Origin: Deltaproteobacteria bacterium
Lineage (GTDB): Bacteria; Myxococcota; B64-G9
Direction of reading: 5' to 3'
NCBI GenBank assembly: GCA_030622135.1
Contig: JAUXGL010000034.1
Coordinates: 1 to 32,054, forward strand
DNA length: 32,054 bases
A program made the translations under genes and the position numbers. Positions 3,720 through 13,697 of this stretch are shown here, in pieces; the stretch's first letter is position 1, and each line of letters begins with the position of its first letter. Below the pieces are notes generated by a model that saw only the letters and a program-made list of their open reading frames with translations, was not told the DNA's origin and made no database searches.

Positions 3720-5864
3720 TCAGCGTCGGCGGCGCTTGGACTTCTTCTTTTCTTTCTTCTGTTTCTCCTGCCATTCCTCCTCCACCTCTTCCGGGGTCTT
3801 GCCCTCCAATAGCGCCTTCTGTTTGGCCAGGTACTCGCGTTCCTTTTCCTCGCCCTTGGAACCGCCCAGGTAGTTGAAGATCTTGGCGATGGCTCCGTAG
3901 ATCCCGGCGACCTTCTTGGGGGACTCGCCGGACCTCTGGGCCATCATGATGGCCTTGGCGCAGTTGTCCAGGGCGTTGTCGGAGTTTTCGGTGGCCAGGT
4001 AGACATTGCACATCTGGTAGTACACCTCCCAGCGCTCGCCGCCGGGGAGGATTATGGTGTCTTCGTACCACTGGCGGGCCTCGTTGTACTTGGCCAACCT
4101 CTCGCCCTTCTGGTCCTTGGTGTTGGGAATCTTGTCGGCCATGGTCTGGTGGCACCGCGCCACGTGGAAGCGGGCGTCCGGGTCCAACTCGTCTACCTTG
4201 ACGCCGTTTTGGAACTCGTTCATGGCCGCCTGTAGGTCGTCCATGCGCATAAGCAGGTTACCTTTGGTCACGTGGTAGGCCACCGTGGGTTTCAAGAAGC
4301 GCTCGAAGTCCTTCAACGAGTTGACCGCCTCGGTCTGTTTGCTCAAAAGGAACAGGCTCTTGGCCCGGTCGAAGTAGGACTTGGGTAGCCGCGGGTCTAG
4401 TTGGATGGCGCGGGCGAAACTGGCGTTGGTCTTGGCCTCGTCCTGGTTCAACGCCGCCAACCGGCCGGCCAGGCCGTGGGCCTCCGCGTTGTTTGGGTAG
4501 ATATCCAGCGACTTGCGCAGCCAGTCGTCGGCCTCGGGGACGTTCTCGGTGGCCAACTCGTACTCCGCGTGGATCAGGTGGAGCATCCCGGTCAGCAGTT
4601 TGGAGAACTCTCCCTCGGGGTGTTTCTGGCGGTCCTCGAACTCGTCGATGATTTGCTTGGCGTTCTTTAACCGTTTGCCCTGCTGAATCAGGGCGTAGGC
4701 CACGCGCAGGTTTGAGTAAACGTGGGAGGGGTTCTTGCGCTTGGCTTCTTTGAAATAGCGAATGGCCCGGGGCAGGTTGCCCTCGCGCAGGTAGACGTCG
4801 GCGAAGGCGGCCTGGTAGCGCGGGGAGTCCCCGGAGAAGCGGGCCGCTCGGCTGTAGTCTTCGCGGGCCTCCTTGATGTTGCCCAGCATGAGATTGGCCC
4901 GGGCACGCGCACCGAAGATCATCGCGTTGAGGAATATGTCTTGTTTGTCCATGCCCCGCTTGATGGTCTTGTTGAGGAACTTGACTGCGTCTTCGGCCTT
5001 GCCGTCGTTTATCATCAACAGGGCCTTGACCGCGAAGCGCTCGGAGTTGGGCAGCTCCTCCGCATCCATCCACTGCTGGTATTCCTTTAGCTTGACCAGC
5101 CGGCCCTGCTGGTCGTGGTTTTGCCAGAGCAGGCTGAGCACGTTGGCCTGGGCGACGATGGCCTTTTCGTCGCTGTCTTTCAGCAAAATGGCGGCGTTCA
5201 GCTCCTTTTCGGCCAGGAGCAGATCGTCGTGGTTGTCGTTGGGGATGGCCCGGCCGGCTGTCTTGATGTGGTCTGCGACCTGAACGCGGATGTCGACATA
5301 GTGGTTGTACCAGACCAGGAAAGCGGCCACCAGCACCGCTACGATGCCCACTTGCACCGCCGTGTGCCGGAACGGCTTGGGGGGTTCCCGGGCGATGCTG
5401 GATTGCCGGGGGACCCAGTACACTTCTAGCCGGCCGTTACCGCTCTGGGGGACCGACTCTTCCATGGCCTGCAGCAAGGCGCGCGTGTGCGTATCGCGGG
5501 GCTCGATCTCGAAGGACTGCATTAGCTCCGCCGCGGCCTTCTGTTCCTGACCGCGGTCGAGAAAAATCTCTCCCAGGGTCCGGTGGGCCACGGAGGAATC
5601 CGGCGACGCCTTCAAGGCCTTCTTCAGGGCAATGACCGCACGCCGATCGTCGTAGTTGTGGTAGTAAGCCATGCCCAGGGCCAAAAACCCGTCGGGCGTG
5701 CCCGGGTTGCTTTGCAGGCCCTGTTTGCAGGCCTCGATGGCTTGCAGGGCCAGTTTTCTCTCCAGGTAGGCCCGGGTCAGGGATACGAAGTTGCCCGGAT
5801 CGGCTTGAAAGTCCGCCTCGAGCTGGTCCAGGTCCACTTTGACGGTTGCCTTCCCTTCGGCCAT
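3720..5864 (-). CDS. Large TPR-repeat membrane protein
   Basis: A 714-residue protein. ATG 5864 is preferred over the in-frame GTG at 5885 because GGAGG sits 5 nt upstream of it. Residues about 10-140 contain tetratricopeptide-like helices (LALGMAYYHNYDDRRAVIAL; AHRTLGEIFLDRGQEQKAA). One transmembrane helix follows (about 168-187), then a long second TPR array to about residue 670 (for example FADVYLREGNLPRAIRYFKE). The C-terminus is very basic (KKEKKKSKRRRR). The family role is protein-protein scaffolding; the partner is unknown. The barrel gene 5 bp downstream suggests an envelope role. TPR regions lie on both sides of the membrane, which would join cytoplasmic and periplasmic faces if the helix truly spans it. 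Confidence 0.8.
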   Translation of the reverse strand: MAEGKATVKVDLDQLEADFQADPGNFVSLTRAYLERKLALQAIEACKQGLQSNPGTPDGFLALGMAYYHNYDDRRAVIALKKALKASPDSSVAHRTLGEIFLDRGQEQKAAAELMQSFEIEPRDTHTRALLQAMEESVPQSGNGRLEVYWVPRQSSIAREPPKPFRHTAVQVGIVAVLVAAFLVWYNHYVDIRVQVADHIKTAGRAIPNDNHDDLLLAEKELNAAILLKDSDEKAIVAQANVLSLLWQNHDQQGRLVKLKEYQQWMDAEELPNSERFAVKALLMINDGKAEDAVKFLNKTIKRGMDKQDIFLNAMIFGARARANLMLGNIKEAREDYSRAARFSGDSPRYQAAFADVYLREGNLPRAIRYFKEAKRKNPSHVYSNLRVAYALIQQGKRLKNAKQIIDEFEDRQKHPEGEFSKLLTGMLHLIHAEYELATENVPEADDWLRKSLDIYPNNAEAHGLAGRLAALNQDEAKTNASFARAIQLDPRLPKSYFDRAKSLFLLSKQTEAVNSLKDFERFLKPTVAYHVTKGNLLMRMDDLQAAMNEFQNGVKVDELDPDARFHVARCHQTMADKIPNTKDQKGERLAKYNEARQWYEDTIILPGGERWEVYYQMCNVYLATENSDNALDNCAKAIMMAQRSGESPKKVAGIYGAIAKIFNYLGGSKGEEKEREYLAKQKALLEGKTPEEVEEEWQEKQKKEKKKSKRRRR

Positions 5865-5929
5865 CACGTCCTCCGGATTAAACACCGAAAACTCCGGTTA
5901 TTTGGATACCACTCCCCAGTCTAGAGGTT

Positions 5930-5968: not shown

Positions 5969-5995
5969 GGGGTCAGGTAATACCACTTGACACTT
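5969..5995. repeat. Left inverted repeat of RAYT element
   Basis: 27 bp, reverse complement of 6959-6985 except for one base. Its last two bases are also the first two of the transposase stop codon (TAA, 5994-5996 on the minus strand). Confidence 0.85.
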
Positions 5996-6932
5996 ATATG
6001 CGGGGGATTCTCGCCGGCCACCGTTCTATCCACTCTTTTAGCTGACCCGTCGCACCATCTCGGCGAATCTTGCTGAGTAGCTTGGCGACCTGCGAATACG
6101 GCATTTCGAGGATCCGGGAGATCTGCCTGTAGGTCTGGTCCTCCCCGCGTTGCAGGGCCCATGCTGCGAATCTTCTTGCCGGATTGGCTCCTGGTCCCAT
6201 CTCCCTTCTCTTTAACTCCGGCATGCTTGCCCCGGTCAATTCGCAGACCTCTTTCAGCACTCTCTCCGCAAGCCGGCCGGCCCTTTTACCGACAAGGGAA
6301 CCTTCCGGCTCGTTGAATCTTGCCTGTCTGCGTTCGATCGATTTCTTTCCAAACAGCCCGGTCTCGGGATCGAAGTCCTCGGGATATTCGATGGCTTTGT
6401 TGCGCACCGACCGGACGAATTCGTTCAACTTAGAAGCGCCTCCGAACAATTGCAGGAAGTGCTCCAATGTCAGCCAATCAGGCGCCGAGTCTCGACCCAG
6501 GTATGCCCGGTGGCTGGTCCACGCAATGGAGTCGAGCCTCGTGACCAGACGCGCCTTTATCGGGTTCAAGTGGATGTACGCCACGAGTATCCTCAGGTAT
6601 TCTTCGTCCTCCACCACCTGGCTCTTGAATCTGCCGCGGAAAACCGGCCCGTCCCAATCGTGTACCCGGTTGAGCCAAAGCGTGTAGATCCCGTTGAGTT
6701 GCCGCATGCAACGGGACAGATTGGCGAGTGGGGTTCTTACCAGGAGGTGATAGTGATTTGGCATCAGTGAAAATACGTGCACTTCGATTGCGTGACGTTC
6801 GACGACGTCGCCCATGATCGAAAGGAACTTCACGCAATCGGCGTCACGCTTGAAAATCGGAGCACGTCGAGCGCCCCTGCTCATGACATGGTGCCATGCA
6901 CCCGGGTAGTCTTCTCTCCTGGACCTTGGCAT
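5994..6932 (-). CDS. REP-associated tyrosine transposase (Y1_Tnp/RAYT family)
   Basis: A 312-residue protein. The N-terminal half is a Y1 (IS200-like, HUH) transposase domain: YPGAWHHVMSRGARRAPIF, the metal-binding MPNHYHLLV (His-x-His), a candidate catalytic Tyr in QLNGIYTLWLN, and FRGRFKSQVV followed by YIHLNPIKARLV. The C-terminal part adds a helix-turn-helix-like segment (YRQISRILEMPYSQVAKLL), as in longer RAYTs. These enzymes nick and rejoin single-stranded DNA at palindromic REP sequences and are usually single-copy genes. The key residues appear intact and the frame is uninterrupted. ATG 6932 is the first start in the conserved frame. No strong Shine-Dalgarno sequence is evident. Confidence 0.92.
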   Translation of the reverse strand: MPRSRREDYPGAWHHVMSRGARRAPIFKRDADCVKFLSIMGDVVERHAIEVHVFSLMPNHYHLLVRTPLANLSRCMRQLNGIYTLWLNRVHDWDGPVFRGRFKSQVVEDEEYLRILVAYIHLNPIKARLVTRLDSIAWTSHRAYLGRDSAPDWLTLEHFLQLFGGASKLNEFVRSVRNKAIEYPEDFDPETGLFGKKSIERRQARFNEPEGSLVGKRAGRLAERVLKEVCELTGASMPELKRREMGPGANPARRFAAWALQRGEDQTYRQISRILEMPYSQVAKLLSKIRRDGATGQLKEWIERWPARIPRI

Positions 6933-6991: not shown

Positions 6992-7726
6992 TCACCACCG
7001 CCACCAGAAATCGATGGCCGGGAGTATGGGTGTGGTCAGGGAGTCCTCTTCATCGTTTTTGAACTCCCAACCGGAGTCGACTCTGAATAGGAACCCGGCC
7101 ATGAGACGGAAGGAGCCCCAGCAGTGGGCATAGAATGCTCCGCCGATGAGCGGTGTCAACTTCTTGTTCTCCACATCGTATGAGCTGCCCAGGGTGAACA
7201 CCAGTATGTTGTGCGGGTTGAGCAGTAGATCGACCTCGCCGCCAAACGTGATACCCTGGGCATTTTCCACGACGAGCGAGGTCTGCTTGTTATCGCGGAT
7301 GTCCGATATCCAGAAGTAGCCTCCGCTTGCCGATACAAGTAGCTGCTTACCGATTGCTACCGTGGCGGTCAAGTCTCCGCCGGCACCGGAAAAATCGTCC
7401 AGGACCGGCCCGAACGAGTGCATGCCTGCACCGGAAATGGACAGTGCAAAGTTCTCCATGTCCAGCATTGTCAGCTCGATCTCGGCGTTTACAATGCCGA
7501 GAAGGTTGCCGAGCAGCACGGTGGACAGTTGCAGGCGATCGGTCAGCCCGACCGATGTCGGCCGCAGCAGGCCCACCTGCCACTCGCCGGCTTGCAGGGT
7601 ATACGCATTGCCGAACTCGGGTTTTTCATCGCCTTCCCAGGCAGCCTTGGAAGTGCCTGCCAGGCAGACCACGGCCAGGGCGACTACGCAGATTTTCAGG
7701 GTCCAGATGCCGGTAAATGGTTTCAT
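6992..7726 (-). CDS. Outer-membrane beta-barrel protein, paralogue of the caspase-like protein's C-terminus
   Basis: A 244-residue protein. ATG 7726 is chosen over the in-frame start at 7789 because GGGAGG lies 8 nt upstream and a signal peptide follows at once (hydrophobic core, then AGTSKA-AWEG). The mature part aligns with the last ~204 residues of the caspase-like neighbour: NAYTLQAGEWQVGLLRPT versus NAYTLRDGEWEVGLLRPT, then FGGEVDLLLNPHNIL versus FGGEIELVMNPKNLL, and TPILPAIDFWWRW versus TPILPVLDFWWRW at the end. Alternating strands and a terminal aromatic residue fit an outer-membrane barrel. It lies 119 bp downstream of the caspase-like gene on the same strand, so co-expression is likely. 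Function unknown. Confidence 0.75.
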   Translation of the reverse strand: MKPFTGIWTLKICVVALAVVCLAGTSKAAWEGDEKPEFGNAYTLQAGEWQVGLLRPTSVGLTDRLQLSTVLLGNLLGIVNAEIELTMLDMENFALSISGAGMHSFGPVLDDFSGAGGDLTATVAIGKQLLVSASGGYFWISDIRDNKQTSLVVENAQGITFGGEVDLLLNPHNILVFTLGSSYDVENKKLTPLIGGAFYAHCWGSFRLMAGFLFRVDSGWEFKNDEEDSLTTPILPAIDFWWRW

Positions 7727-7845
7727 TGGTTCAGCCTCCCTACTCGGAACCGTGTCAGGTTCCCTCGTTTGGTTTACCTTCACTGACACGCGAGGAAGGC
7801 TGCGCGGACAAAAAAGCTACCAACAAGTTGAAAGCTGACCGCCCT

Positions 7846-9585
7846 TCACCAGCGCCACCAAAAATCCAGCACCGGGAGAATCGGCGTTTGAAAGCTTTCG
7901 AAATCCCATGGCTCGGTGGAGAACATCAGGCCGATCATGATCCTGAAGGTGTCCCAGCGATGGGCGTATGAGAAGGTGCCTATCAGAGGCATGAGGCCAT
8001 TGTCCAGGAAGTCGTAGCCGCCGGAAACGCTCCAGATGAGGAGGTTCTTCGGGTTCATCACCAGCTCGATTTCCCCTCCGAAGTTGAGCCCGCTTTGTGT
8101 TGGGGTATTCGGCCAAGCATGCCCGGAATTCTCTACTTCAGATCTCGATGATCCCGAGGTGAACGCCGTGTAGCCGGCGCATGCCGAGATATACAGCCGG
8201 TGGCCGATCGGGATGGTGGCGATCAGCCGGCCATCGATAGCACCAAGCTTATTCGGGAAGAAGTATCCCCCCCCGGCCTCGACCGCTGCCGCGAAATGGG
8301 AGGTTCTGATAAAGCTCCACTTGGCCAGCAAATTAAGAAATCCTATTGAATTCGCGAATATGGAGGTGGATAGCTGGAATCTGCCCGCGATGCCCACGCC
8401 GGTCGGGCGCAGCAGACCAACCTCCCACTCTCCGTCCCTGAGCGTGTAGGCGTTCAAAAAAGCGGGGATCTCGTCGCTCTCCCAGCCCTGGCGCTGGATG
8501 ATGCCCTTTTGCACCAGCACGTCATAATCGACCTGTCTGAGCTTGCCTGTGTTCAGGACGCTTGTCGATCCTGCCTTGATGTCGATCTGTCCTTCTTGCA
8601 GGTTATCCGGCGTTCTGAAACGCACGAAGTAAGGTCCGGCAGGCAGCCACACGATACGTGCTTTTTCGGATACGTGGGCTTCCATTTCCAGGGGATCGTT
8701 GGATCCCTTTCCCCGGTGCAGCAGATACACACCGGGATTGGTAAGCTCGAGCGATCCGATATCTCTTGTGGTCTGGAGGTGGCTGAGAACCAGATCCGCC
8801 TTGCCCCGCATTTCAAAGTGGAAAGTCGGGTGCTGGATACCGACGAGCGTTCTGGCCGTGCTCACGATCGTTCGCTCGGACGTATAGCGATAAGCCTCGG
8901 CCAGCGTCACTCTCGCGTCGGCATTGGAGTCGGCAGCACCTCTCAGCGCGGACATCAAATGGTGGGTGAAGAACGAGCCCCCGAGATCATCCGATTCCTG
9001 GGCCTCCTCGCCGGCGGACGCCGATGAGAGGATCACGAAGCCCTCTGTCTGGGTGGCGTCATTCGGCAGCAGGGCAAAAGGCTTGCTGAGCTTGAAGCCC
9101 TTGACCCGGGTGGCTTGCCCGGAGCGGCAGGCGTCGATGATCAGCAGACGCAGGTCGGCGGACGAGCCCATGGTCAGATCTCTGAACTCCTCCCAGGACA
9201 TTGAGGTCGGACCTAGATGGAGCGATAGGGCATCGGCGTGTCCGGAGTAAAACACCAAAAGCACGCTGCGGCAATCCCGGCAGACCTCCGATCGGATCCG
9301 GACGTTCAGCCTGGCCAGGCTGCTGCGGAGGCCGTCGGCTGTCGGATCTTCGAGAACCACGACGTTTTTTTGGGGGAACATGCCGTGGCGCATCAATACA
9401 TCGGCCAGTTGTCTGGCATCCTTGGCAGCGTAGCGAAGAGGGTGCTCACCGGCCTGACCGTGATTGGAGCCTACCAGAATCGCGTACCTTGAGCTTGCCC
9501 AGGTGTGAGATGCAAGTAAGCAGAGGGAAACCAAGATAAGTGCCAGCATGGCCCCGCGGCCACTCGCGTGGCTCGAACCTGTCAT
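7846..9585 (-). CDS. Secreted caspase-like (peptidase C14) protein fused to a beta-barrel domain
   Basis: A 579-residue protein. ATG 9585 overlaps the anti-sigma stop codon (ATGA). Residues 1-30 form a signal peptide (hydrophobic LALILVSLCLLASH, then TWA-SSR). Residues about 33-270 are a caspase p20-type domain: RYAILVGSN, the catalytic His116 in FYSGHAD and Cys153 in LLIIDACRSG, so the dyad is intact. Residues about 280-365 form a small beta-rich, PEGA-like segment (VYLLHRG to LPAGPYFVRF). Residues 376-579 are a predicted outer-membrane barrel paralogous to the downstream gene. The expected location is the periplasm, with the C-terminus in the outer membrane. Caspase-like domains are often linked to regulated proteolysis; the substrate is unknown. 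The ECF sigma/anti-sigma pair upstream suggests stress-regulated expression or signalling. Confidence 0.85.
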   Translation of the reverse strand: MTGSSHASGRGAMLALILVSLCLLASHTWASSRYAILVGSNHGQAGEHPLRYAAKDARQLADVLMRHGMFPQKNVVVLEDPTADGLRSSLARLNVRIRSEVCRDCRSVLLVFYSGHADALSLHLGPTSMSWEEFRDLTMGSSADLRLLIIDACRSGQATRVKGFKLSKPFALLPNDATQTEGFVILSSASAGEEAQESDDLGGSFFTHHLMSALRGAADSNADARVTLAEAYRYTSERTIVSTARTLVGIQHPTFHFEMRGKADLVLSHLQTTRDIGSLELTNPGVYLLHRGKGSNDPLEMEAHVSEKARIVWLPAGPYFVRFRTPDNLQEGQIDIKAGSTSVLNTGKLRQVDYDVLVQKGIIQRQGWESDEIPAFLNAYTLRDGEWEVGLLRPTGVGIAGRFQLSTSIFANSIGFLNLLAKWSFIRTSHFAAAVEAGGGYFFPNKLGAIDGRLIATIPIGHRLYISACAGYTAFTSGSSRSEVENSGHAWPNTPTQSGLNFGGEIELVMNPKNLLIWSVSGGYDFLDNGLMPLIGTFSYAHRWDTFRIMIGLMFSTEPWDFESFQTPILPVLDFWWRW

Positions 9586-10307
9586 GGCTTCACCATAAGC
9601 TCCCAGGTCTTCATATGGCAACCTCTGGTGGCCTCGGGAGGCGCGCGGTCGCGGTCCAGATCGGCAAGGCATTTTTGCAGGTCAACTGAGCTCCCGCACG
9701 CGAGAAGCACGAGCCGCGTGCGTCCGGGGGTTGCGGTAAGGCCGATGGGAAGCCATTTGTCTGCCGGGAGGTCGCCTTCGAAAAGGATCTCGCAGGCATG
9801 CTGTTCACAACCGCCGAGAGCCACCACGCGGCCAGAGGCTCCCAGAACACGGAGCCTGAGCTGATCGCCCACAAGAAGCGGCGGTAGCTTCTCCAAGGGA
9901 GTCGATTGGGCGATGATGCGGCCTGCTCTCAGAAGCGTTACATCGAGCGAGAGTGTTCCTTTAGCCCGCAGGCCGAAATCACCACGCCTGTCGGAAGTCG
10001 GCAGCAGGAAAAGCACGACGACCGCTATCATCGATATGGTTGCGGTCGCCAGTGTCCAGGGTATCCAGCGCGCGGGTGTGTGCGAGTCGGTGTCGAGAAG
10101 CCGTTGTGGGATGTGCTCGCAGGCGGCAAGTTCGACCTGCTCGCGTTCCCGATCGACCAGTTTCTGGCAGCGCGGGCATGTGTTCAGGTGGGCTTCTGCG
10201 ATCCGGCTCATCCTCGGGCTCAGCTCGCCCAAGACAAACCGGGATACGGTGAAATGCGAGAGGCATTCCAAAGATTGCCTGGTGCGTGGGATCCGGTCGC
10301 TCGTCAT
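9582..10307 (-). CDS. Zinc-finger transmembrane anti-sigma factor
   Basis: A 241-residue protein. The N-terminus carries the anti-sigma zinc-binding motif His40-x3-Cys44-x2-Cys47 (AHLNTCPRCQ). One transmembrane helix spans about residues 81-103. A ~135-residue extracytoplasmic domain follows, with strands such as LSLDVTLLRAGRII and several Cys residues; no family was recognised for it. The gene overlaps both neighbours by ATGA: its ATG (10307) overlaps the sigma-factor stop and its stop overlaps the caspase-like start, so translation is probably coupled. In known systems such proteins hold an ECF sigma factor at the membrane until a signal inactivates them. Here the periplasmic protease-like partner could be the sensor, the target or an output; that is inference. 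Confidence 0.85.
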   Translation of the reverse strand: MTSDRIPRTRQSLECLSHFTVSRFVLGELSPRMSRIAEAHLNTCPRCQKLVDREREQVELAACEHIPQRLLDTDSHTPARWIPWTLATATISMIAVVVLFLLPTSDRRGDFGLRAKGTLSLDVTLLRAGRIIAQSTPLEKLPPLLVGDQLRLRVLGASGRVVALGGCEQHACEILFEGDLPADKWLPIGLTATPGRTRLVLLACGSSVDLQKCLADLDRDRAPPEATRGCHMKTWELMVKP

Positions 10308-10825
10308 TGTGATCTCTTTGGCTCGGATACTTCCAGAAGCCGTCGCGCGTGCCTTCGAAATCGTTCCAGTCGCCGGCCCACGGTTCGCCGGTTAATGGAC
10401 AGCAATTCTGCGATTTCTTTGTGCTCCATGTCGTCGAGGTAGTAGTACGAGGCGATGCGAGCCTCTTTTTTGGAAACCTTTGCCAGTAGCTGTCTAAGTA
10501 CCAAACTCTCGTCCGGCGCTTGAAATCCTTTGCCATGGGGATTGGCACCTGCTTGATCGAGCAACTCCTGTCTCCGGCGCGTGTCGCGCAGATGGTTGAG
10601 CGACATGTTGGTCGCCATCCGGTAGAGCAGACCGGCCGGGTTTTCCTCCCGGCCGCCCTTTCGTCTATGTTGGAGATACCTCACGAATACCTCCTGGGCC
10701 ACATCGTCAGCCAGCGTGGGGTTTTTGAGAATCCTGAGAGCACGGTTTCGTACCATGACGATATATCGCCGGTAGATCGTGCCGATGTCCACTTTGCCGG
10801 CCGGCTGGTTGTGTGCCGTTTTCAA
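10304..10825 (-). CDS. ECF-subfamily RNA polymerase sigma factor
   Basis: A 173-residue protein, the usual size for an ECF sigma factor. Region 2 is seen at about residues 18-55 (YRRYIVMVRNRALRIL, then LADDVAQEVFVRYL). Region 4 lies at about 110-165 with a helix-turn-helix (DMEHKEIAELLSINRRTVGRRL). The frame starts with TTG at 10825, preceded 9 nt upstream by AGGGG; no in-frame ATG lies before region 2. It heads the leftward operon with anti-sigma factor and caspase-like protein. The regulon is unknown. Confidence 0.9.
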   Translation of the reverse strand: MKTAHNQPAGKVDIGTIYRRYIVMVRNRALRILKNPTLADDVAQEVFVRYLQHRRKGGREENPAGLLYRMATNMSLNHLRDTRRRQELLDQAGANPHGKGFQAPDESLVLRQLLAKVSKKEARIASYYYLDDMEHKEIAELLSINRRTVGRRLERFRRHARRLLEVSEPKRSQ

Positions 10826-11181: not shown

Positions 11182-11354
11182 CGGACCACCGCAACGCCCC
11201 TCCTCCCCATTTTCCAGAGTGTGTGAGCGACCGTGTCGTGCCTTGGCTAGCCATGCCCCCTCCACTGCCTGAATCGCAGGCTGGGAATGCTGGGAATTGA
11301 CACGAAACGGGGTATCCTCTAATCTGCAAGTCTGCGTTTTTGTGGGAGCAAAAC

Positions 11355-13697
11355 GTGCTGAAGAAGCTGTTTAGACCATCCGGCTTCAAACTGGGTCTCT
11401 TGCTCACTCTGCTGTTCTGCCTGGTTAAGCTGAATTACCTGGTCTTTGCGGGGGCGCACGCCTTCCGGTTCATCGAGAACATCGAGAACTCGCTTCTGGA
11501 TCTCAAATTTCAGATTCGCGGCGGTCCCGGCACCCCCGAAGAGAAGCAGGTCTTCCAGGAAAAGGCCCACGTGGTCATCGCGGCCATCGACGAGAAGAGC
11601 GTTCGGATGGAAGACCTGGGCATGTTCCCCTGGCCCCGCGACAAGATCGGTATGCTCATCCGGCAGTTGAACAAGTGCGGCGCCAAGGTCATCGGTTTCG
11701 ACGTGGTTTTCTCGGAGCCCGACGCCTCCCGCACCGCGCCGGTGGTCGGGTCCATCGTGGAGAAATACGCCCAGGCATCCAGCCGGGACGAGGCCTTCCA
11801 GAAGGAACTCGAGGAGATCTATGCCCGGGTGCAGGGGGACAAGATCCTGGCCAAGGTGATCGAAGATTCGGAAAACGTGGTGCTGGGCTACTTCTTCTTC
11901 ACCAATCCCGAGGAAGTGGCCAAGCTGTCCGACCGGGACAAGCAAGAAATCAAGGAGGGAAAAGACAGCATCGGTTTCGGAACGATTGCATACACGGCCA
12001 AGTCACCGCGGACCAACGTGGGAGAGTGGTTTCACCGGGCGCTGGGCGTGAGGGCCAATATCCCCGTCTTGACCGAAGCGACGGAGCGCTACGGGTTCTT
12101 CAACCAGGTCCCGGACCAGGACCGGATCTACCGCCGGGTCCCCATGGTATTCGCCTTCGATGGCAATGTGTTCCCGTCGCTGTCTTTGCAGGTGCTCTCG
12201 GCCTACTACGAACAGCCGGTCGAGTTGCTGGTCAATACCATCACCAAGAACGAGCACATACCGGGCTTTGTGGGCCTGTTCATCGGGCCGCTGGGAATGC
12301 CCACCGAGGAGCACGTCGAGATTCCCGTGGAGACCGGAGGAATGTTCCGGGTCAACTATTACGGCGGGGGGCGGACCTTCAAGCATGTTTCGGCGGGGGA
12401 CATCATCCATGGCGAGCCCCAGGCTTGCGCCGATGTGAATGACAAAGTGGTACTGGTCGGCGCCACCACCTGGGGTATCTACGACCTGAGGCCCACGCCG
12501 TTCGAGCACAGCTTTCCAGGCGTGGAGATCCACGCCAGCGCCATCGAGAACGTGATTACGAAGGATTTCACCAGCCGGCCGATTGTCCTCCAGCACTTCG
12601 AGGCGTTGTTCATTCTACTGGCGGGGATTTTCCTCAGCTGGGTTTTAAACCGCATCCGGTTGACCTTGGGTCTGCTGGTGGTCATCGGCCTGTTCTTAGG
12701 CGTACTGGCGGCCGACTCCGTGTTTCTGTTTAGGAGCGGTATCCAGGCGCACATCGTCTGGCCCCTGGTGCACATGGTGGTTTTGTTCATGGGGGTGGCC
12801 GTCTACCGCTACGCGACCGAGGAGCGGCAGAAGCGGGAGATCCGGCACGCGTTTCAGTTTTACCTGTCGGGCAGCGTCATCGACACCATGCTGCACGATA
12901 CCTCCAAGCTGAAGCTGGGCGGGGAGCGCCGCGAGCTGACCGTGCTGTTCTCCGACATCCGCGGGTTTACCACCATCTCCGAGCAGATGGCTCCCGAGGC
13001 GGTGACCGAGCTGTTGAACGAGTACCTGACCCCCATGACCGACCTGGTATTCAAGTACAACGGTACCCTGGACAAATACATGGGCGATGCCGTCATGGCT
13101 TTCTTCGGCGCCCCGGTGTCCTTCGCGGACCACCCCCGGGCCGCCTGCCGGACGGCGCTGGGGATGATGGAGAAGCTCCGGGAGCTGCGGGCGGACTGGC
13201 GGGTGCGGGACATGCCCGAGCTGGATATCGGCATCGGGGTCAACACCGGCCCCATGTCGGTGGGCAACATGGGCTCGGCCGATCGCTTCGACTACACGGT
13301 GCTGGGCGATCACGTAAACCTGGGCTCGCGGCTGGAGGGTTTGAACAAGCAGTTCGGGACTCACATCATCGTCAGCGAGTTCACCCAGGCGAAGCTGGGC
13401 GATCATTTTACCTGCCGGGAGCTGGATGCCGTTTTGGTCAAGGGCAAGCTGGAGCCCGTGCGCATCTTCGAGCTGCTTCACCGGGGTCCGGCGGATCCGG
13501 ACCAGGACGGCTGGATTGAGGATTTCCACGGCGCGCTGGGCAAATACAAGCAACGCGAGTGGGCCCGGGCCATCGCCGGGTTCGAGAAGCTGTCGGAGGA
13601 CCGGGTTTCGAAGATGTACATCCAGCGGTGCATGGAGATGCAGGCGAACCCGCCGGGACCCGAGTGGGACGGCTTGTTCAAGATGACTACCAAATGA
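11355..13697 (+). CDS. CHASE2-domain class III adenylate cyclase
   Basis: A 780-residue protein. GTG 11355 is preferred over the in-frame TTG at 11340 because GGGAG lies 6 nt before it. An N-terminal helix (about 13-35) leads into a periplasmic CHASE2 sensor (about 36-385: VIAAIDEKSV, MFPWPRDKIG, IGFDVVFSEPD, VGATTWGIYDLRPTP). Two or three more helices follow (about 415-485), then a cytoplasmic class III cyclase domain (about 525-700). Metal-binding aspartates lie in FSDIRGFT (Asp534) and DKYMGDAVMAFFG (Asp578). Lys574 and Thr648 form the Lys/Thr pair seen in bacterial ATP-using cyclases, and Asn655/Arg659 lie in GDHVNLGSRL. All are present, so activity is expected. The final ~70 residues form a short helical tail. 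It heads a cluster with a cyclic-nucleotide-binding protein and a phosphodiesterase-like gene. Confidence 0.92.
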   Translation: MLKKLFRPSGFKLGLLLTLLFCLVKLNYLVFAGAHAFRFIENIENSLLDLKFQIRGGPGTPEEKQVFQEKAHVVIAAIDEKSVRMEDLGMFPWPRDKIGMLIRQLNKCGAKVIGFDVVFSEPDASRTAPVVGSIVEKYAQASSRDEAFQKELEEIYARVQGDKILAKVIEDSENVVLGYFFFTNPEEVAKLSDRDKQEIKEGKDSIGFGTIAYTAKSPRTNVGEWFHRALGVRANIPVLTEATERYGFFNQVPDQDRIYRRVPMVFAFDGNVFPSLSLQVLSAYYEQPVELLVNTITKNEHIPGFVGLFIGPLGMPTEEHVEIPVETGGMFRVNYYGGGRTFKHVSAGDIIHGEPQACADVNDKVVLVGATTWGIYDLRPTPFEHSFPGVEIHASAIENVITKDFTSRPIVLQHFEALFILLAGIFLSWVLNRIRLTLGLLVVIGLFLGVLAADSVFLFRSGIQAHIVWPLVHMVVLFMGVAVYRYATEERQKREIRHAFQFYLSGSVIDTMLHDTSKLKLGGERRELTVLFSDIRGFTTISEQMAPEAVTELLNEYLTPMTDLVFKYNGTLDKYMGDAVMAFFGAPVSFADHPRAACRTALGMMEKLRELRADWRVRDMPELDIGIGVNTGPMSVGNMGSADRFDYTVLGDHVNLGSRLEGLNKQFGTHIIVSEFTQAKLGDHFTCRELDAVLVKGKLEPVRIFELLHRGPADPDQDGWIEDFHGALGKYKQREWARAIAGFEKLSEDRVSKMYIQRCMEMQANPPGPEWDGLFKMTTK

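Follow-up and report, generated by a model that had tools for sequence, protein, structure and literature searches.

In the window, as the whole 32,054-nucleotide stretch of DNA that was analyzed is called here, a secreted caspase and the membrane anti-sigma factor encoded beside it share a short motif, R-x-K-G. Since an enzyme of this class carries R-V-K-G in its own loop and the adjoining anti-sigma factor carries R-x-K-G in its stalk, the simplest reading is that the caspase serves as a site-1 protease. It is rather probable that this caspase is Arg/Lys-specific, processes itself, is able to come away from its barrel, and makes the site-1 cut in its own anti-sigma factor. The gene order, the domains, the catalytic residues, and the conservation of the motif together with its restriction to caspase-linked anti-sigma factors are established here and carry the argument.

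The locus and its family of cassettes

A Pfam search and the translations place four genes on the minus strand in the order ECF sigma factor, anti-sigma factor, caspase, free barrel. The sigma gene (10304..10825) encodes 173 aa from a TTG start and matches Pfam Sigma70_r2 (E=4e-12) and r4_2 (E=8e-9) and NCBIfam sigma70-ECF (E=1e-20). It has regions 2 and 4 only and adjoins a zf-HC2 anti-sigma gene, the arrangement of an ECF factor with a zinc-finger anti-sigma factor; the family and the operon suggest that the second protein inhibits the first. The anti-sigma gene (9582..10307, 241 aa) matches zf-HC2 (E=2e-5), and its paralogues match DUF4384 (PF14326). The 579-aa caspase (7846..9585) matches Peptidase_C14 (PF00656, E=8e-17), and its catalytic domain is followed by a beta-sandwich, a linker, and a C-terminal barrel. 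The free barrel (6992..7726) is a secreted protein of 244 aa counted from its ATG, and its open frame begins further upstream, at 7789, with GTG. Its 43% identity to the caspase barrel (E=4e-48) bears out the paralogy claimed in the original prediction, and the two ATGA gene overlaps reported there are real, at 10304-10307 between sigma and anti-sigma genes and at 9582-9585 between anti-sigma and caspase genes. The Sigma70_r2/r4, zf-HC2, and Peptidase_C14 matches all exceed the Pfam cut-offs; neither the caspase barrel nor the free barrel has a Pfam or NCBIfam match.

The surrounding genes are of other kinds. An IS200-like (Y1) transposase gene (5994-6932, minus strand; Pfam Y1_Tnp E=2e-11) comes immediately after the free barrel, downstream and in the same orientation, and beyond it lies a gene for a TPR protein of 721 aa that includes a hydrophobic stretch (3720-5885, minus strand). 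A CHASE2-adenylate/guanylate cyclase gene (11340-13697, plus strand) is divergent from the sigma gene.

The locus is widespread rather than singular. In the host genome (4.8 Mb, 280 contigs) PF00656 detects 21 caspase genes and the family profile adds one, C142, so that the window caspase is one of about 22 paralogues, and a 2012 survey had already noted sigma-caspase operons (PMC3501461). Nearly all of these caspases share the sigma/anti-sigma/caspase arrangement; in the case of C142, the sigma and anti-sigma genes have the same orientation and lie about 7 kb downstream. All eight DUF4384 hits in the host genome adjoin caspases. Caspase homologues occur in 29 of 39 relatives, with up to 21 per genome. 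A scan of GTDB genomes, run with an alignment of closer sequences after a first one had proved too divergent, found them in the named relatives Polyangium, Minicystis, Sorangium, Archangium, Nannocystis, Pyxidicoccus, and Myxococcus and in many MAGs labelled Myxococcota, Myxococcales, or Deltaproteobacteria. These relatives point to Myxococcota as the phylum of the host. The linkage of caspase and sigma genes, which was to be checked by genome searches, is conserved in its order across Myxococcota: under a strict distance rule, anti-sigma and sigma genes lie directly upstream of the caspase in at least 107 of 143 fetched loci, and 12 further caspases fail the rule solely because their mechanical reading frame starts too early. 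The remaining loci comprise a few cut by contig ends, a few ordered caspase-lipoprotein-sigma-anti-sigma, and about ten orphan caspases. A plasmid search returned distant C14 domains only, and PADLOC, run for anti-phage defense, detected nothing beyond a weak, generic match to a caspase.

Variants of the cassette exist. A second sigma-linked caspase subfamily (L024, L027, L028, L312-L334) has a different C-terminal part and mostly R-G rather than K-G motifs, and some of its members have a pair of hydrophobic stretches in place of the barrel. The caspase-barrel gene L305 (G001:C26), with no sigma pair detected nearby, has lost the K-G after the catalytic Cys. No shared promoter was found upstream of the cassettes, which thus give no evidence of autoregulation. 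A stretch of the form TTCCCA...GGGTAAT/GGGTAAG, a possible ECF promoter, precedes the sigma gene in L015, L050, and L052 only, which are related cassettes from different genomes.

Most cassettes have a further partner. A profile search, used in place of a crude lipobox scan that undercounted lipoproteins in high-GC loci, finds a secreted lipoprotein family in 91 of 141 fetched loci, in most cases immediately behind the caspase gene or immediately ahead of the sigma gene. Its members (for example L013:3098-3811, L075:2713-3972, and L147:7476-8450) carry the signature C-G-D-x-L-V...Y-x-G-E-P-L-F, and the family has no Pfam or NCBIfam model. In L021 (6311-8590) the lipoprotein is fused to a further region and lies between sigma and anti-sigma genes, and the gene after the caspase matches DndB. 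The lipoprotein is missing in the window, where the free barrel occupies its place. With a sole orthologue among the 39 relatives (G003:C87, 48% identity), the free barrel is, judged from sequence, the unusual part of the window locus. Three protein parts that no Pfam or NCBIfam model covers are thereby defined, namely the lipoprotein family and the two barrels, free and caspase-borne. The lipoprotein family and the barrel appear to be undescribed, as does the periplasmic DUF4384 domain of the anti-sigma factor.

Architecture of the caspase and the anti-sigma factor

The catalytic dyad of the caspase is intact, as the original prediction stated: His116 (9238..9240, minus strand) and Cys153 (9127..9129, minus strand) are each invariant in 134 of 134 homologues. 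Asp151, two residues before the cysteine, is conserved in 133 of 134, and we take it to be the metacaspase-type S1 acid that gives a preference for Arg/Lys. The caspase is thus a predicted Peptidase_C14/orthocaspase-like enzyme with Arg/Lys specificity. Orthocaspases cleave on the C-terminal side of basic residues, and autoprocessing is known for one of them (PMC6426788, PMC8283722).

An AlphaFold2 model built from an alignment of 62 sequences shows a confident module of caspase and beta-sandwich at residues 30-355, with pLDDT mostly >90. Its catalytic part matches legumain, metacaspases, and caspases (Foldseek, E~1e-7), while the best 50 Foldseek matches of the whole model are caspases and their relatives only, with no solved structure matched to the barrel. 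The p20/p10 loop (residues 160-178) is modeled with low confidence and the linker (residues 359-395) is disordered, with pLDDT <50. The signal peptide that had been read from the sequence is borne out by an N-terminal hydrophobic signal whose residues 8-25 are helical in the model.

The C-terminal domain (residues 395-579; 7849..8403, minus strand) is barrel-like. The structure prediction proposed as a check for a closed barrel returns eight long strands at residues 395-554 with only low to moderate confidence (pLDDT 40-73), and a closed barrel is putative. The C-termini of 129 homologues fit the outer-membrane beta-signal: the last residue is aromatic in 64% and hydrophobic in 87%, being mostly F, W, or L, and hydrophobic residues alternate at positions -2, -4, and -6. 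A signal peptide and a C-terminal aromatic beta-signal, the pair of features that marks outer-membrane barrels, thus occur together, and the anchor of the caspase looks like an eight-strand outer-membrane barrel, to go by its residues and its modeled strands. An even strand number leaves both ends of such a barrel facing the periplasm, which would make the caspase periplasmic. Of the proposed surface or outer-membrane anchoring, then, the outer-membrane half is favored by the strands and the beta-signal, and the surface half is not.

The anti-sigma factor consists of zf-HC2 (residues 22-48), a TM helix (85-101), a disordered stalk (105-114), and a DUF4384-like beta-sandwich (120-241). Its AlphaFold2 model shows the helices of the zinc finger, pLDDT <50 across the stalk, and a confident beta-sandwich from residue 120 onward; no significant structural match to this model was found.

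The shared R-x-K-G motif

In the caspase, RVKG at residues 160-163 (9097..9108, minus strand) is the predicted autoprocessing site. It belongs to a T-R-V-K-G segment shortly after the catalytic Cys that has Lys in 130 homologues and Arg in 2 (132/134) and Gly in all 134, a conservation equal to that of the catalytic residues. A KG pair at the start of the pre-barrel linker (residues 360-361; 8503..8508, minus strand) is the predicted release site; it has Lys/Arg in 129 of 130 homologues and Gly in 122 of 130, amid a linker that is otherwise poorly conserved. The free barrel begins just beyond the point equivalent to this pair. In the anti-sigma factor, RAKG (residues 114-117; 9957..9968, minus strand) is the predicted cleavage site. 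All three translations were checked, and the motifs fall in or beside low-confidence loops and linkers of the two models.

Among 117 caspase-linked anti-sigma factors, the motif between TM helix and DUF4384 has Arg at P3 in 96, Lys, Arg, or Met at P1 in 104, 6, and 5, and Gly at P1' in 116, so that [KR]G is present in 109 and the full R-x-[KRM]-G in 95. The glycine, G117 in the window, is the only invariant anti-sigma column in alignments of 58 and 60 sequences, ahead even of the zinc ligands. The motif is restricted to proteins with a caspase beside them: R-x-[KRM]-G follows the TM helix in none of 28 zf-HC2 proteins from caspase-free neighborhoods of the same genome and nine others (95/117 versus 0/28, Fisher p=1e-16), three of which have a bare [KR]G. 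No full-length anti-sigma factor of the DUF4384 type was found in eleven genomes with no or only weak matches to the caspase family. Split cassettes L255 and L256 retain the motif, and in each of their genomes there is an orphan caspase whose type matches: YGLKG in L255 fits LALKG in the orphan L061, while the stalk of L256 resembles that of L014, to whose caspase the orphan L077 is similar. Caspases outside the sigma-linked family are mostly without a fixed K-G after the Cys, and some have R-G elsewhere in the loop.

This distribution bears on the role of the caspase. The sigma factor may instead switch on the caspase as an output, a secreted enzyme that processes envelope proteins such as the partner lipoprotein or kills the cell, with another protease of the HtrA/DegS type in control of the anti-sigma factor. 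Genes that lie downstream of an ECF sigma gene in the same operon are often its targets, and some orphan caspases have no sigma pair. Autolysis or programmed cell death was proposed for myxobacterial metacaspases in the 2012 survey (PMC3501461). An output role is nevertheless unlikely: it leaves unexplained why the caspase's own motif stands in the anti-sigma stalk and is absent from caspase-free relatives, and a genome with as many as about 22 copies in parallel suits specific signaling better than a death effector.

A docking or structural role for R-x-K-G, which could mark the start of the DUF4384 fold in one protein and a turn in the other, would make the resemblance convergent or incidental. 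In its favor, conservation is stricter for the glycine than for the basic residue, and a tally of caspase/anti-sigma pairs (motifs in 34 of its loci were read by eye) gives 117 Lys/Lys, 17 Arg/Arg, 10 mixed, and 6 with Met at P1 of the anti-sigma factor. Those six are awkward for an Arg/Lys enzyme, which should not cut there; five stand beside a Lys caspase and one forms a Leu/Met pair, and all six have Arg at P3. Covariation of caspase and anti-sigma residues at P3 and P1 is strong in simple tables (p=6e-5, 1e-4, 1e-13) but loses significance in sign tests of Lys/Arg and P3 on independent pairs drawn from trees, which hold few independent changes. With so few changes, covariation is only suggestive and is not used here as proof; P2 identity in cognate pairs, scored with cruder motif picking, is no better than in shuffled pairs. 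A purely structural role is nonetheless quite improbable, since caspase-free DUF4384 anti-sigma factors (L257, L264, and L267, three members only) lack the motif, the motif sits at the boundary of the disordered stalk and outside the DUF4384 fold, and in divergent subfamilies the pairing holds where the spacing between the Cys and the caspase motif is different, with K-G/K-S and R-G/R-G among the pairs.

A third, Arg/Lys-specific periplasmic protease that activates the caspase by cutting its loop and also cuts the anti-sigma stalk, with the caspase as a co-substrate, would account for the same motif in caspase, anti-sigma factor, and pre-barrel linker, but has little chance of being the answer, since no linked candidate is seen in the cassettes, caspase-class enzymes autoprocess and prefer basic P1 residues, and a motif confined to caspase-linked anti-sigma factors is narrower than the range expected of a general protease.

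A proposed relay across the envelope and known systems

The preferred reading, in which the caspase itself cuts the anti-sigma factor, can be laid out as a relay. A zinc-finger anti-sigma factor in the inner membrane would keep the ECF sigma factor inactive, with a flexible stalk and then the DUF4384 beta-sandwich on its periplasmic side. The caspase, to go by its sequence features and structure prediction, would cross into the periplasm and be held at the outer membrane by its C-terminal eight-strand barrel, with the partner lipoprotein of most cassettes, or the free barrel in the window, encoded next door. A signal at the outer membrane or the surface would set off the caspase, and the barrel, the lipoprotein, and DUF4384 are candidate sensors; envelope stress, which had been suggested as the trigger, gains no support. 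The caspase would then autoprocess at R-V-K|G in its p20/p10 loop, and a cut at K|G in the linker may free it from the barrel, as the pair before the barrel suggests that release from the outer membrane is possible. Site-1 cleavage would follow at R-x-K|G of the cognate anti-sigma factor, close to the periplasmic face of the inner membrane. With DUF4384 gone, what stays behind would be a short stub such as site-2 proteases accept, as with RseA and RseP. An RseP-type site-2 protease would finally free the sigma factor for transcription of its target genes; the host genome encodes an M50 site-2 protease (G000:C74, E=5e-53), whose tie to the window sigma factor is putative only. The cleavages, the localization, the signal, and the targets are all parts of the relay that we infer.

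The boldest guess of the original prediction, cleavage of the periplasmic portion of the anti-sigma factor by the caspase, thus gains real comparative support from the shared motif, while that cleavage, like the mechanism as a whole, remains a prediction. There is an even chance that the scheme holds in full: a caspase tethered in the outer membrane would be the site-1 protease devoted to an anti-sigma factor of the inner membrane, would cleave itself, could detach from its barrel, and would cut the anti-sigma factor at a copy of its own processing site. Up to about 20 such circuits would run in parallel in Myxococcota, each equipped with a separate sigma factor and often with a separate lipoprotein.

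Bacterial caspases have mostly been discussed as death enzymes, and we know of no established substrates. The comparative evidence names a substrate for one, together with a predicted cleavage site and a purpose, the switching of an ECF sigma factor across the envelope; the shared motif points to a bacterial caspase that would pass signals from the surface of the cell on to its genes. If true, the relay would add a new class of protease to regulated anti-sigma proteolysis and a link that spans the outer and inner membranes, and it would explain why myxobacteria have many caspases. It is directly testable by one residue change on each side.

The 2012 survey listed sigma-metacaspase operons in Myxococcus (including Myxococcus xanthus), Anaeromyxobacter, Haliangium, Sorangium, Ralstonia, and Fibrobacter without giving a mechanism, and its myxobacterial operons are probably the same as the cassette described here; in the text consulted, it reports sigma genes only, and the anti-sigma domain, the barrel, the lipoprotein, and the shared motif are not described (PMC3501461). 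A review of non-canonical ECF sigma factors places proteases, including CHAT proteins, near group ECF54, with no anti-sigma factor (PMC8999054). No description of the cassette was found in the open literature, a comparison that stops short of the ECF classification groups.

A comparison of the cassette with characterized switches shows both common parts and distinct solutions. The DegS/RseP-RseA-sigmaE system shares with it a membrane anti-sigma factor and a predicted two-step release of an ECF sigma factor through periplasmic cleavage, with an M50 site-2 protease present. DegS, however, is a PDZ-HtrA serine site-1 protease tethered to the inner membrane, whereas the protease linked to the cassette is a cysteine caspase with a predicted outer-membrane tether, encoded in the same operon and present in many parallel copies. 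FecA-FecR-FecI cell-surface signaling likewise combines an outer-membrane barrel, an inner-membrane anti-sigma factor, and an ECF sigma factor. The cassette barrel is small in comparison, with about eight strands and no Pfam match to a TonB-dependent receptor, unlike the 22-strand receptor with its plug, and the periplasmic link would be a protease.

The nearest proven mechanism is that of the type III-E CRISPR-associated system Cas7-11/Csx29-Csx30-CASP-sigma, in which a caspase-fold (CHAT) protease, Csx29, cleaves the inhibitor Csx30 and so relieves an ECF-like sigma factor, CASP-sigma, switching transcription (PMC10028731). That system is cytoplasmic and activated by RNA, whereas the cleavage predicted for the cassette is periplasmic, and Csx30 is not described as a zinc-finger membrane anti-sigma factor (PMC10028731). 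Csx29 is a TPR-CHAT protease bound to Cas7-11; the window protease is a Peptidase_C14 enzyme with a signal peptide and a predicted outer-membrane barrel.
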